Shown here: positions 47,453 through 52,739 of the stretch, piece by piece
Numbering within the stretch: the first letter of the stretch is position 1
Layout: the number at the start of each line of letters is the position of its first letter
Source: Flavobacterium sp. 123
GTDB lineage: Bacteria > Bacteroidota > Bacteroidia > Flavobacteriales > Flavobacteriaceae
DNA: 64,000 bases
NCBI RefSeq assembly: GCF_003634825.1
Contig: NZ_RBXD01000001.1
Coordinates: 518,501 to 582,500 of the forward strand
Direction of reading: 5' to 3'
The notes under the pieces: model-generated
What the model was told of the DNA's origin: nothing
Seen by the model: only the letters and a program-made list of their open reading frames with translations
Database searches by the model: none
Program-made: the position numbers and the translations under genes

Positions 47453-47486
47453 AAAAAAACGCTCTCAAAATAGAGAGCGTTTTTTT
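47453..47486 (-). terminator. Intrinsic terminator of the gatCAB::aspS operon
   Basis: Stem ACGCTCTC / GAGAGCGT (47459-47466 with 47473-47480) extended by A/T pairs on both sides, 6-nt loop, T tract on the minus strand. Confidence 0.85.
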
Positions 47487-47510: not shown

Positions 47511-50500
47511 TTATTTCATAATTCGAACATTCATTTCTTCTACCTTTTTATCCGATAAAAGCGATGGCGCTCCAAATAATAAATCTTCACTACTTCCTGT
47601 TTTCGGAAAAGCCATAACTTCTCTAATGGATGCTTTTTTCTCTAAAATCATCATCAAACGGTCTATTCCCCAAGCAATTCCTCCGTGTGGTGGTGCGCCG
47701 TATTGAAAAGCTTTATGCATTGTTCCAACACTTTTCATCATTTCTTCTTTATTGTAACCCATATTTCTATAAGTTGCTTCCAGAATTTCAGATTTGTGCG
47801 CACGAACTGAACCTCCACCAATTTCGTAACCGTTTAAGATGATGTCGTATTGCTGCGCGATAATAGTTCCAATTTCTTCATCATCTCCTTTCATATGCTT
47901 TTCTAAATCATAAATCGCAGGCATCGAGAACGGATTGTGTGTAAAAGTCCATCTACCTTCGTCTGTTCTTTCAAACATTGGAAAATCAACAACCCAAGCC
48001 GGACATAATTCTTTCGGATTAATCAAGTGTAGCATTCTACCCAACTCCTGACGAACAGCATCTAAAGCTTTATTAGCAGTAGCATAATCTGCTGCCGAAA
48101 AGAACACAATATCGCCTACTTGTGCGCCAGTTGCTTTTATAATTCCTGCCGCAATTTCTTCACCTAAAAACTTAATAATCGGCGACTGCAACTCTTCTTC
48201 ATTTACAATAATATAAGCCAATCCACCTAAACCGTGCTGTTGCGCAATAGCGGTAAGGTTTTCAATTTGACCTTTAGACATACGTTTGTTTCCTTGTTCC
48301 TTAGCCGAAACCTTGATACATTTCACAATTCCGCCATCTTCAATTGGTTTGCTAAATACTTGGAAAGTCGTATCTTTTACAATATTAGTAATATCCTGCA
48401 TTTTCAATCCGTAACGCAAATCAGGTCGATCACAACCGTAGAAATCCATTGCATCCTTATAGGTAATAACTTCAAACGGACGTAAAATCCACTTGTTACC
48501 GTATATTTTCTTCACTACTTCATTAAACATTTTTGTGTTTAAATCTATAATTTGCTGCATACTTGCGTAGGCCATTTCTAAATCCAATTGCGTAAATTCT
48601 GGTTGACGATCTCCACGAGAATCTTCATCTCTAAAACAACGTGCAATTTGGAAATACTTTTCATAACCACTTACCATCAACATCTGTTTGAATTGTTGAG
48701 GCGCTTGTGGCAAGGTATAAAACAAACCAGAACCTTTACGTGTTGGAACAATAAATTCGCGCGCTCCTTCATCCGTACCTGCACTTAAAATTGGCGTTTC
48801 AATTTCCAAAAATTCTTCTTCATCCAAAATGTCACGCAATAATTTAATTACTTTATGACGGTTTACGATGGCTCTTCTAACCTCTTCATTTCTATGATCC
48901 AAAAACTTGTATTGGAAACGAATTGCTTCGTTCGTTTTGGCCGCTCTTTTAATCTCAAAAGGCAATGTTTTCGATAAGTTTAAAATCTCTAAAGCTGAAG
49001 TTTCCAACTCAATTTTACCTGTACGCAAACCGGCATTATAATCATCTTCATTACGTCCAACAACAATCCCCGTTACCGAAATCACTGATTCTGGTTTCAA
49101 TTTCACCAACTCATCAATATTAGGAAACGATTCTCTACTAATTCGTACTTGAAAAATCTCAAAACTTGAATCACGCAAATCAATAAACATCAATTCACCG
49201 TGATCTCGAACACTCGCAATCCAACCGGATAACATCACTTCTTGACTGATGCTTTCTTCAGATAACTGTGAAATTTTATGCGTTCTATACGTATCTTTTA
49301 TAATAATCGGAATTTCAGGAAGTGATTCTTCTTGACTTTCTTTATTTTCAACAATCGTTTCTATCGAAAATTTTTCCGACGCTTCTTTCTTTTCCAAAAT
49401 AGCATCAGCACCTAATTTGTCTAAAATAATTTGACGAATTACTTTACCATTAGCGCCTTTCCCAATAACCCCTAAAACTTTACCAACTAAAATACCAGCT
49501 TTTCCTTGGTCACCCGCTTTGATATCATTGGCAACAGCCTCATTTTCTGAAATTACAGTCGAAATCACTTCTTGGATTGTATCTTCAGAAATAGTGTTGT
49601 CTTCAAAATACTTGTTGTAGTCAAAAGTTCGGTCTTTTAAATACCCCGTAATCGCATTTTGGACTAAAACTGCCGTGATTTTTTCAGCCTTGAATAATTT
49701 AAAAATATCCGTTAAATGGGCAATACTATGGATTTCTGCATAGTCTTCAGCCTTAATATTGTTTGCCAAAGTTTTAGCAACAAACGAAGGGTCTTTGATT
49801 TCATTATTTATTTCTACAAATGTTTGCGAACGCAATTTATCTGCAGTGAAAAACTTAGCATCTTGAGGCAAAACACCACCGTTAATCAAAATAGATTCCA
49901 CAGCATAAGGCAATGCACTTGTATCCACTTTTATCGCTTCAATCTCCGCTTTAATATTTACAAAAGGTAAATCTGGTTCCGAAATAAAACGATAATCCGC
50001 TTCAAATTCTTTTTTTCGCATTACTTTGGTTTGCTTCAAATCAGCATCCCATAATACAGTTGTTTGATCAGGTCTAAATTCTTTGTGCTCAATAAAATAA
50101 TTGAATTGTTTTTCAACCTCTTCTTTCAAAGCTTCCACCATAAACTTAAACGAGTTCAAGTTTTTGATCTCCGTTCTTGGGTTTAATTCGTAACTATGTT
50201 TTTTGCGCAAAGACACCGAAACATCCGATTTGAATTCTCCTTTTTCCAAATTCGCTTCAGAGATTCCTAAGTTTTGAACAATACGTTGAATGTATTGCGC
50301 GTAGGTAGATGCGTCTTCAATATTACGGATACAAGGCTCCGTAACAATTTCTATCAACGGAACACCCGCTTTATTAAAATCGACTAAGGAAATTTTCTTT
50401 TCGTGAACCAATTTCGCAGCATCTTCTTCAATATGAACCTGAGTTAAATTTACAGTAAATTGAGTACCGTCATTTCTATAACAAGAAACGTGTCCGTCAG

Positions 50501-50840
50501 GAATGATAGGATTATGAAATTGCGTTATTTGAATATTTTTTGGATTATCCGGATATTCGTAATGCTTTCTATCCCAAGAGATAATTTCATTACTGAATGA
50601 CGAATCCACCGCTTTTCCAAAATAAATCGCTTTTGTAATTGCTTCTTTGTTTAAGGCAGGCAAAACGCCCATTTGTCCCGTACAAACCGAACATATGTTT
50701 TGGTTAGGTGTTTCTATTTCTTGATTTGGACAAGAACAAAACAACTTGGTTTTGGTATTCAATCGAACGTGAGTTTCTAGTCCAATTACCAATTCTAAAT
50801 CGTGGGCTTTTAAAGCCGCAGTTAATTGCTCCAATTCCAT
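47511..50840 (-). CDS. gatB/aspS: Fusion of GatB (tRNA amidotransferase) and aspartyl-tRNA synthetase
   Basis: A 1109-residue protein in one open frame. Residues 1 to about 478 are a complete GatB: LELVIGLETHVRLNTKTKLFCSC with the CxC...CxxC zinc site, HIEEDAAKL, KAGVPLIEIVTEP, and the YqeY-like tail ending VLGVIGKGANGKVIRQI. A roughly 37-residue Glu/Ser-rich linker follows. Residues about 516-1109 are a complete bacterial AspRS: OB anticodon domain (VMLSGWIASVRDHGELMFID), motif 2 (CFRDEDSRGDRQPEFTQ near 732), the GAD insertion, and motif 3 (GGIAWGIDRLMMIL near 1050). GatB supplies the kinase and tRNA platform that converts misacylated Asp-tRNA(Asn) or Glu-tRNA(Gln). Its start overlaps the gatA stop by 1 nt (TAATG). 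Both halves look functional. Confidence 0.95.
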   Translation of the reverse strand: MELEQLTAALKAHDLELVIGLETHVRLNTKTKLFCSCPNQEIETPNQNICSVCTGQMGVLPALNKEAITKAIYFGKAVDSSFSNEIISWDRKHYEYPDNPKNIQITQFHNPIIPDGHVSCYRNDGTQFTVNLTQVHIEEDAAKLVHEKKISLVDFNKAGVPLIEIVTEPCIRNIEDASTYAQYIQRIVQNLGISEANLEKGEFKSDVSVSLRKKHSYELNPRTEIKNLNSFKFMVEALKEEVEKQFNYFIEHKEFRPDQTTVLWDADLKQTKVMRKKEFEADYRFISEPDLPFVNIKAEIEAIKVDTSALPYAVESILINGGVLPQDAKFFTADKLRSQTFVEINNEIKDPSFVAKTLANNIKAEDYAEIHSIAHLTDIFKLFKAEKITAVLVQNAITGYLKDRTFDYNKYFEDNTISEDTIQEVISTVISENEAVANDIKAGDQGKAGILVGKVLGVIGKGANGKVIRQIILDKLGADAILEKKEASEKFSIETIVENKESQEESLPEIPIIIKDTYRTHKISQLSEESISQEVMLSGWIASVRDHGELMFIDLRDSSFEIFQVRISRESFPNIDELVKLKPESVISVTGIVVGRNEDDYNAGLRTGKIELETSALEILNLSKTLPFEIKRAAKTNEAIRFQYKFLDHRNEEVRRAIVNRHKVIKLLRDILDEEEFLEIETPILSAGTDEGAREFIVPTRKGSGLFYTLPQAPQQFKQMLMVSGYEKYFQIARCFRDEDSRGDRQPEFTQLDLEMAYASMQQIIDLNTKMFNEVVKKIYGNKWILRPFEVITYKDAMDFYGCDRPDLRYGLKMQDITNIVKDTTFQVFSKPIEDGGIVKCIKVSAKEQGNKRMSKGQIENLTAIAQQHGLGGLAYIIVNEEELQSPIIKFLGEEIAAGIIKATGAQVGDIVFFSAADYATANKALDAVRQELGRMLHLINPKELCPAWVVDFPMFERTDEGRWTFTHNPFSMPAIYDLEKHMKGDDEEIGTIIAQQYDIILNGYEIGGGSVRAHKSEILEATYRNMGYNKEEMMKSVGTMHKAFQYGAPPHGGIAWGIDRLMMILEKKASIREVMAFPKTGSSEDLLFGAPSLLSDKKVEEMNVRIMK

Positions 50841-52237
50841 TATATTGTATCTTTTAAGAAGTTTGCGAACTTCAACACTAATTCATCATTATTTTTTGCT
50901 GCCGTAATTTGCAGTCCAGTGCTTGTTCCTTGTGGTACGGTCAACGTTGGCAATTGCCCCAAACTAAAACCAACTGTATACGCATCGGACAAATACATCG
51001 CCAATGGATCTTTTAAACTGTCTCCAATTTTAGGCGGAGTACTTGGTGTAACTGGCGATAAAATAATATCAACTTCTTGAAAATCTTTACTAAAATTCTC
51101 CGAAATTTGATCTCTTAAAGCCAATCCTTTCAAATATATTTCATCTGAAAAACCTTGAGACAACACTTGATTTCCACCAACAATTCTACGTTTTGTTTCT
51201 TCCGAAAAATTCTCAGAACGGGTAACAGCATAGGTTTCAATTAAATTTTCTGCTTCAATTCGGTTTCCATAATTAGTACCGTCCAAACGAGACAAATTAG
51301 AAGCCGTTTCAGCCATTGCTAATGTATAGTAAGTTGAAACTAAAATTTCCGATTTGAAAAAATCCAATTCTTTTACCACAATTCCATTGGCTTTCAACTT
51401 TTCGATAGTTGCCAAAAAATCAGCTTTTATCTGTGCATCGATAGCGTCACTTTCGATAAAGTTTTTAAAATAACCAACTGTTTTCACAGTAGAAGTTGCA
51501 ATCGAATCTTCACTAATTTCTGATGATGAGATTGAAGTTTGATCTTTTGGATCTTTTCCGCTCATTATATTCAACACAATTCGAATATCTTCAATTGATT
51601 TCGCCAATGGACCAACACAATCCGTAGAAGACGCATAAGCCATAAGACCAAATCGAGAAATTCTTCCGTAAGTAGGTTTAAAACCATAAATATGATTGTA
51701 ACCTGCAGGCTGACGTATAGAACCGCCGGTATCGCCTCCAATAGAAAACGCAGTATACTCTTTTGCCACGTTAACCGCAGATCCGCCGCTTGAACCTCCA
51801 GCAACTAATTCTGGATTGATAGCGTTTTTTACAGCTCCAAAAATGGTATTCTCACTAGATGAACCATGTCCAAAACTATCGCAGTTTTCTTTTACCAACG
51901 GAATAGCACCCGCATCCAATAATTTTTGAATGGCAGTTGCCGTGTAAGGTGATTTGTAATTTTTCAACAAATCAGAACTTGCAGTCGTGTAAGTTCCTTG
52001 CACCATATACACATCTTTAATTCCAAAAGGAATTCCTTCTAACAAACCTATTGTTTCTCCGTTTGCAATTTTAGCATCCACTTTTGCAGCTAAATCTAGT
52101 GCCAAAGTATCCAACAAAGAATTTACTGAATTGTAAGTATTTTGTTTAAGTACCTCTAATTTTTCTTGTACCAAAGCGGTGCAAGTTATTTGTTTTGACA
52201 CCAATTGTTGGTGTATTTTTTTTATCTGAGAATCCAT
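50840..52237 (-). CDS. gatA: Glutamyl-tRNA(Gln)/aspartyl-tRNA(Asn) amidotransferase subunit A
   Basis: A 465-residue amidase-signature protein, slightly shorter than the usual 480-490. It releases ammonia from glutamine for GatB. The Ser-cisSer-Lys triad can be placed: Lys in LEGIPFGIKDVYMVQG near residue 75, cis-Ser in AGGSSGGSAVNVA near 148, nucleophile Ser in GGDTGGSIRQPAGYN near 172. It sits between gatC (1 nt gap) and gatB::aspS (1 nt overlap), so the three are surely translated together. A stand-alone amidase would be the alternative, but context decides for GatA. Confidence 0.93.
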   Translation of the reverse strand: MDSQIKKIHQQLVSKQITCTALVQEKLEVLKQNTYNSVNSLLDTLALDLAAKVDAKIANGETIGLLEGIPFGIKDVYMVQGTYTTASSDLLKNYKSPYTATAIQKLLDAGAIPLVKENCDSFGHGSSSENTIFGAVKNAINPELVAGGSSGGSAVNVAKEYTAFSIGGDTGGSIRQPAGYNHIYGFKPTYGRISRFGLMAYASSTDCVGPLAKSIEDIRIVLNIMSGKDPKDQTSISSSEISEDSIATSTVKTVGYFKNFIESDAIDAQIKADFLATIEKLKANGIVVKELDFFKSEILVSTYYTLAMAETASNLSRLDGTNYGNRIEAENLIETYAVTRSENFSEETKRRIVGGNQVLSQGFSDEIYLKGLALRDQISENFSKDFQEVDIILSPVTPSTPPKIGDSLKDPLAMYLSDAYTVGFSLGQLPTLTVPQGTSTGLQITAAKNNDELVLKFANFLKDTI

Positions 52238-52238
52238 T

Positions 52239-52511
52239 TTATCCTTCTATAACTTTAGCAACGACTAAAAAACCATTTTTTTTGTTCGGGAAATTTTCTA
52301 AAATAAGTTGTTTCTCCATAGCCGAACTTTCTATCACAACATCTTCTCTTAAATCATTTACTGACACACAATTATGATTGACATTATTTGCAGCATTATT
52401 ATTATTTGATGGGATTGCATTTTTAATTACATCAAATAATTTGTTCACGCTCTCAGAGGGTTGTGCTCCTTTAATACTCGACAAAATGTCGACTGTCATT
52501 ATTTTACTCAT
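52239..52511 (-). CDS. gatC: Amidotransferase subunit C, divergent N-terminal half
   Basis: A 90-residue protein. The C-terminal third (LREDVVIESSAMEKQLILENFPNKKNGFLVVAKVIEG, about residues 55-90) is clearly GatC, matching the LRxD...NxP...FxVPKVI pattern that wraps around GatA. The first half (SKIMTVDILSSIKGAQPSES and an Asn-rich NNNNAANNVNHN stretch) does not show the usual AxLARLxLSxxE helix. GatC normally staples GatA to GatB. Start at the ATG complementary to 52509-52511; a TTG 24 nt further upstream is unlikely, and an ATG four codons on is possible. First gene of the operon. Confidence 0.8.
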   Translation of the reverse strand: MSKIMTVDILSSIKGAQPSESVNKLFDVIKNAIPSNNNNAANNVNHNCVSVNDLREDVVIESSAMEKQLILENFPNKKNGFLVVAKVIEG

Positions 52512-52739
52512 AATTTTAATTCGTTTTAAAGTCAAACTTTTAAGGTGGCGAATTTACAAAAGTTTTATTTGGGAATATCATTTTTTTAATGATTTAGATG
52601 GTTTTCAACCAAAGAAGATACTAATTTAACATTATGTTTAATTTTGTTATAATATGTAGCCTTGTTGTGAAATAGTAGTCAAGTTAAGAGGAAGAGAAAA
52701 CAGATAAAATGAATGCAAGTATCGCAGATTTTAATGGAT

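Follow-up and report, generated by a model that had tools for sequence, protein, structure and literature searches.

The window analyzed here (the whole 64,000-nucleotide stretch of the Flavobacterium sp. 123 genome) contains no tRNA genes and carries, on its reverse strand, an operon of gatC, gatA and a third gene in which gatB is joined in frame to aspS, the gene for aspartyl-tRNA synthetase (AspRS). A preliminary description of this DNA had proposed that a complete GatB and a complete AspRS share one 1109-residue frame behind gatC and gatA, and both the open reading frame and the profile matches bear this out. Our survey of related genomes points to a replacement of asparagine synthetase, a function that was absent from that description. 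We propose, with a probability of about 0.83, that the operon encodes a covalent asparagine transamidosome, which would make asparagine on tRNA(Asn) and take the place of the asparagine synthetase AsnB. The features of the locus are collected in Table 1.

Table 1. Features of the gatC-gatA-gatB::aspS locus (positions in the window).
Feature	Position	Strand	Remarks
gatC	52239..52511	-	90-residue open reading frame; weak GatC match
gatA	50840..52237	-	465 residues; Pfam Amidase, E 1.5e-114
gatB::aspS fusion	47511..50840	-	1109 residues, single intact open frame; profile matches to both halves
GatB half, residues 1-476	49413..50840	-	
Cys35, Cys37, Cys50, Cys53, putative GatB zinc site	50682..50738	-	invariant in 56 aligned fusions
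Linker, residues 477-510	49311..49412	-	variable, predicted disordered
AspRS half, residues 511-1109	47514..49310	-	oligonucleotide-binding (OB) anticodon domain, catalytic domain, GAD
His547, equivalent of the RDHG His in Pseudomonas aeruginosa non-discriminating AspRS	49200..49202	-	
Inverted repeat and T runs directly 3' of the fusion stop	47453..47486	.	read by eye; not listed by a consensus scan
Conserved block 5' of gatC	52512..52563	-	kept in ten Flavobacterium-type loci aligned; contains TAAATTCG

All parts of the amidotransferase GatCAB are encoded at the locus (gatC, gatA, and gatB with catalytic and YqeY domains), and all pass the Pfam cut-offs, GatC with 23.8 bits against a gathering score of 23. 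The gatA product contains the motifs GIPFGIKD, AGGSSGGS and GGDTGGS, which we take to hold the Lys-Ser-Ser triad of the amidases, and its top match by sequence in the PDB is 4wj3_A, GatA of the P. aeruginosa Asn-transamidosome (E 2.7e-96). The four cysteines of the GatB half are presumably zinc ligands. In the AspRS half, the class II core (PF00152, E 2e-103) is accompanied by the GAD insertion (PF02938, residues 829-926). The linker between the halves varies in length from 31 to 47 residues among 56 aligned fusions, with a majority-residue fraction of 0.30 versus 0.75 for GatB and 0.82 for AspRS, and the predicted structure has a confidence score (pLDDT) below 50 across residues 478-510.

The fusion is real and widespread, and it already has a name in the databases. 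NCBI lists it as 'bifunctional amidotransferase subunit GatB/aspartate--tRNA ligase AspS', and the statement in the preliminary description that such fusions occur in flavobacterial annotation was correct. A protein search returned 5,527 relatives, and the 120 listed among them are 1109-1111 residues long, contain all five Pfam domains and are 93-97% identical; those listed with an organism name are mostly from Flavobacterium. From 253 matching genome loci, 80 were kept for comparison, from Flavobacterium, Polaribacter, Algibacter, Tamlana, Aquimarina, Lutibacter, Wenyingzhuangia and others, and all 80 have both halves in one frame. The operon context is equally stable: by tblastn, gatA lies directly upstream of the fusion in 90 of 90 loci (88 distinct), and gatC upstream of gatA in 89. 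The frame is also open within an assembly consisting of one 2.92-Mb contig; we consider a sequencing, assembly or annotation artefact ruled out by the recurrence of the fusion across relatives and in the genus and family samples described below, leaving it a negligible probability. A frameshift or stop between the halves, or confinement to a single strain, which the preliminary description had named as grounds for doubt, were looked for, and neither holds.

The same description had suggested surveying the fusion across Bacteroidota. We used a genus sample of 298 genomes, with the genus taken as Flavobacterium, and a family sample of 365 genomes from 203 genera, with the family taken as Flavobacteriaceae; both assignments were made from the organism names attached to near-identical proteins. 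GatB was found in 36 of the 298 genus genomes and is fused in 35 of them. Thirty-four of these frames have at least 1069 residues, and one (G348), scored as fused, ends inside the AspRS half, where its 4.8-kb contig stops. The remaining genome (G329) was scored as lacking the fusion. In the family sample, GatB occurs in 59 genomes (38 of 203 genera) and is fused in all 59, in frames of 1115-1130 residues. A class-wide sample had GatB in 228 of 296 genomes, and in a follow-up of 28 of these genomes the fusion was present in the window's genome and in eight genomes of one other family (f13), the latter at 58-70% identity. All nine fused genomes of this follow-up also encode a stand-alone AspRS.

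Two observations concern the edges of this distribution. In the exceptional genus genome G329 (loci L071 and L101), gatA is paired with an unfused gatB on a contig of 10.5 kb; its GatB of 488 residues is 37% identical to the fused half and has the longest branch among the 44 GatBs compared, and it is likely a contamination. Fusions were also seen in metagenome-assembled genomes labelled Marinilabiliaceae, Bacteroidales or Bacteroidia (L150, L161, L163, L186), which may reflect a range beyond Flavobacteriaceae or mislabelled bins.

Presence of the fusion and presence of AsnB are nearly exclusive. AsnB was called when a match exceeded the cut-off of the equivalog model NF006949. By this measure, none of the 59 family genomes with the fusion has AsnB, versus 277 of the 306 without it (Fisher 2e-46); the corresponding numbers for the genus sample are 2/35 and 223/263 (Fisher 3e-21). 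A count that disregards the cut-off is less lopsided, yet it has the same direction: no scored match to the AsnB model better than E 1e-20 was seen in 35/59 family genomes with the fusion versus 18/306 without it (Fisher 4e-20), and in 14 of the 33 genus genomes that have the fusion and lack AsnB. Five genera of the family sample are of mixed state, and in all five the members with the fusion have no AsnB while the members without the fusion have it (sign test 0.03). AsnA, searched in the genus sample only, was found in 0/35 genomes with the fusion, in 14/40 genomes with neither fusion nor AsnB, and in 0/5 AsnB-containing genomes included as a control. Read plainly, these counts mean that asparagine is supplied either by the fused system or by AsnB, and since the fusion is found, in the genomes compared, mostly where AsnB is missing, it is probably the asparagine source of these flavobacteria.

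In the window's genome, the search for asnA and asnB suggested by the preliminary description gave a divided answer. Neither AsnA nor an AsnB of the NF006949 type was found; two AsnB-family proteins (L008 and L009) were found that exceed the TIGR01536 threshold and remain below the NF006949 cut-off. Judged by sequence-derived labels, one is encoded beside an epimerase-like gene and the other beside a glycosyltransferase-like gene; both loci contain sugar or polysaccharide genes.

The accompanying search for stand-alone aspS, gatB, asnS and glnS showed that, outside the operon, the genome encodes a stand-alone AspRS of 583 residues, AsnRS, LysRS, GlnRS (TIGR00440, 720 bits) and GluRS; no second GatB was found in the genome. 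Of the paired separate genes that had been named as an objection to the fused arrangement, aspS is thus present and gatB is not. As the stand-alone AspRS is also encoded, the fusion is a second AspRS, with 40% identity between the fused half and the resident enzyme, and as GlnRS is present, GatCAB is dispensable for Gln-tRNA(Gln). By its sequence, then, the fused enzyme is not the only AspRS of the cell and is one with a residue of the non-discriminating type.

We take His31 and a nearby glycine of the P. aeruginosa non-discriminating AspRS to be positions of the anticodon domain that govern tRNA specificity. The residue comparison comprised 99 fused and 22 stand-alone rows including duplicates, that is 89 and 21 distinct sequences, and left out L163, in which the start motif was not located. 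Histidine occupies the RDHG position in 89/89 fused AspRS halves and in 0/21 stand-alone Bacteroidota AspRSs, which have Lys (10), Leu (9), Met (1) or Phe (1); the AspRSs of E. coli and T. thermophilus have Leu. On the tRNA side, a single gene of the window's genome matches the tRNA(Asn) pattern, and it carries U1-A72 and G73. The U1-A72 pair is a determinant for bacterial GatCAB (PMC4206432, PMC9976931). Thirty genomes were scanned, and the pair was present in all 24 tRNA-Asn loci fetched from them (from 14 genomes with and 10 without the fusion), after a 99-nt odd call in L245 had been disregarded. The pair was therefore dropped as a means of telling the two groups of genomes apart.

Each half of the fusion was placed on a tree of its own. 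The AspRS tree, a quick one in which long branches were flagged, had 62 rows (23 of the 99 fused halves, 21 stand-alone AspRSs, 15 sequences resembling those of the candidate phyla radiation (CPR) and 3 references; L070, a copy of L001, was left out). The fused AspRS halves form a single clade with a support of 97 in the Shimodaira-Hasegawa-like approximate likelihood ratio test (SH-aLRT), and the stand-alone Bacteroidota AspRSs form a separate one (SH-aLRT 99). The GatB halves also form a single clade with support 100, in a tree of 13 fused and 30 stand-alone GatBs and that of G329. With each half in one clade, the fusion most likely arose once. A duplication of the resident AspRS was considered as the source and is not supported by the AspRS tree. 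The nearest stand-alone relative of the fused AspRS is P0318, labelled Peregrinibacteria (62% identity), and the next nearest are twelve proteins without a label that have Trp where Gly is conserved. We infer that these twelve come from Gracilibacteria-like organisms with genetic code 25, whose TGA glycine codons were read as Trp. P0318 and P0341-P0358, the stand-alone AspRSs most similar to the fused AspRS, look Patescibacterial, and several of them have such Trp residues. Of the 15 CPR-like rows, P0359 and P0360, of which P0360 also has the label Peregrinibacteria, lie on the opposite side of the tree from the fusions.

The above observations suggest the following scheme. GatC, GatA and the GatB::AspRS chain would form a covalently tethered asparagine transamidosome, in which the fused AspRS of non-discriminating type would load Asp onto tRNA(Asn), and GatCAB would amidate the resulting Asp-tRNA(Asn). 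The resident AspRS would serve tRNA(Asp), GlnRS would serve tRNA(Gln), and AsnRS would recycle free asparagine, so that the operon product would be the cell's source of asparagine in the stead of AsnB. The tether may aid fidelity or channelling, and would presumably fix the two activities at a 1:1 stoichiometry. A further elaboration is offered tentatively, as its parts taken together are somewhat more doubtful than probable: the fused AspRS may by now prefer tRNA(Asn), with the tether as a safety device for a misacylating AspRS next to a discriminating AspRS, AsnRS and GlnRS; GatB may have been joined, a single time, to an AspRS with relatives in Patescibacteria (Gracilibacteria/Peregrinibacteria); the system may be obligately covalent; and it may have been swapped repeatedly with asparagine synthetase in Bacteroidota.

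A number of points weigh against a replacement of AsnB by the fused system. The genus-sample fusions form one clade, so the genus counts are not independent events and overstate independence. The NF006949 cut-off is strict (in control genomes, 3/14 exceeded it and 13/14 matched the model), and asparagine synthetases of other types are therefore scored as absent; moreover, at most four AsnB candidates per genome were scored in the genus sample and at most three in the family sample. L008 and L009 could be able to make asparagine. Two genus genomes, G519 and G529, are the only ones with both the fusion and AsnB, their AsnB being a weaker match (E about 1e-203 versus about 1e-285 for the commonest type). 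A further 26 of the 298 genus genomes (for example G314, G319 and G328) have neither the fusion nor AsnB above the cut-off nor AsnA, so that absence of AsnB need not imply an alternative source. On the side of the enzymes, the gatC and gatA products remain under the NCBIfam cut-offs (23.7 bits versus 47.1, and 431 versus 481), and at the other of the two specificity positions, where P. aeruginosa has Gly, 84 fusions have Asp, 4 have Ser and 1 has Glu (21/21 stand-alone Bacteroidota AspRSs have Lys). Finally, U1-A72 is equally present with and without the fusion; it allows the reaction and does not discriminate.

Several of these facts would also be expected if the fusion were a redundant back-up that only supplements Asn-tRNA(Asn), with asparagine coming from AsnB-like proteins of another type or from uptake: L008 and L009 do pass TIGR01536, the AsnB model does miss other synthetase types, and the 26 genomes without any of the three systems must cope in some other way. 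We nevertheless find a mere back-up role unlikely, because it leaves the strong exclusion with NF006949-type AsnB unexplained, and because more than half of the fusion-containing family genomes (the 35 of 59 mentioned above) have no scored match even at the relaxed threshold. It is still more improbable that GatCAB acts on Glu-tRNA(Gln), or that the AspRS half is an ordinary discriminating enzyme, and that the fusion is incidental. The NCBIfam name of bacterial GatCAB, Asp-tRNA(Asn)/Glu-tRNA(Gln) amidotransferase, covers both substrates, but the full GlnRS makes a role in Gln-tRNA(Gln) formation unlikely, and the histidine of non-discriminating type, the 40% identity to the resident AspRS and the separate clade argue against a discriminating enzyme. 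A tethered transamidosome that makes asparagine in place of AsnB thus remains our preferred explanation.

The flanks of the operon and its first gene have features of their own. The inverted repeat behind the fusion is probably an intrinsic terminator, possibly a bidirectional one. Upstream of gatC, we liken TAAATTCG in the conserved block to the Bacteroidota -7 promoter element; the exact motif, TANNTTTG, was not found 5' of gatC in the window, where only a variant is present. A scan for RNA families, including leaders and T-boxes, gave just two matches to microRNA families, far under the gathering score. The gatC product has an Asn-rich stretch (PSNNNNAANNVNHN) between two conserved blocks, which is also found in L108, L110, L111, L170, L209, L217, L220 and L226. 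It may be a plain linker, or a sensor that couples gatC translation to the supply of Asn-tRNA; as a general sensor it was rejected, being missing in L103-L105 and weaker in Aquimarina loci.

A search of open-licence full text in PubMed Central found no study of a GatB::AspRS fusion, subscription papers being outside that scope, and the likely tethered, asparagine-making role in place of AsnB was likewise not met in that literature. The bare database name thus gains a likely function, and from the survey it can be predicted in which flavobacteria asparagine is made on tRNA. The fusion is a natural test of whether keeping synthetase and amidotransferase together matters, and since their link is permanent, severing the linker would be a direct test of whether holding both together improves fidelity. 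This question of fidelity has been studied in mycobacteria, whose transamidosome requires tRNA to assemble and was stabilized with trehalose; fidelity was found to follow the stability of that complex (PMC8406222).

The protein most similar to the fusion is the named NCBI GatB/AspS, which is the same protein; it is only a name, and no experiment on it or discussion of it was found in the open-licence literature. A route through a non-discriminating AspRS and GatCAB that coexists with AsnRS and GlnRS has a precedent in Bdellovibrio, which forms Asn-tRNA(Asn) with a single non-discriminating AspRS (PMC4206432). The Asn-transamidosomes of P. aeruginosa (4WJ3) and mycobacteria (PMC8406222) also combine a bacterial-type non-discriminating AspRS with GatCAB, but from separate chains, whereas the chains here are covalently joined and are accompanied by AsnRS, GlnRS and a stand-alone AspRS. 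According to a survey of 547 genera, a second AspRS together with AsnRS, GlnRS and GatCAB, and without asparagine synthetase, occurs only in Deinococcus-Thermus, while 15 further genera have additional AspRSs (PMC4206432). The main text of that survey names Deinococcus-Thermus, Actinobacteria and Clostridiaceae as groups with two AspRSs; it names no flavobacteria and contains 'fus' just once, for a construct, so that the present case is an addition outside the groups named there (PMC4206432). Thermus and Deinococcus resemble the window's genome in having two AspRSs, AsnRS, GlnRS and GatCAB, but their second, non-discriminating AspRS is archaeal-type and separate, while the one described here is bacterial-type with GAD and is fused to GatB (PMC4206432). 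In NCBIfam NF009460 (PRK12820), AspRS is also joined to an amidotransferase subunit, although it is another subunit (GatC) with AspRS at the opposite end, and the window's fusion scores 463 bits versus a cut-off of 1379. ErdS (AspRS-DUF2156) and LysX (LysRS-MprF) are likewise synthetases fused to an enzyme that uses aminoacyl-tRNA, but these modify lipids and do not convert an amino acid on tRNA for translation (PMC9437257), as the GatB::AspRS fusion is proposed to do.

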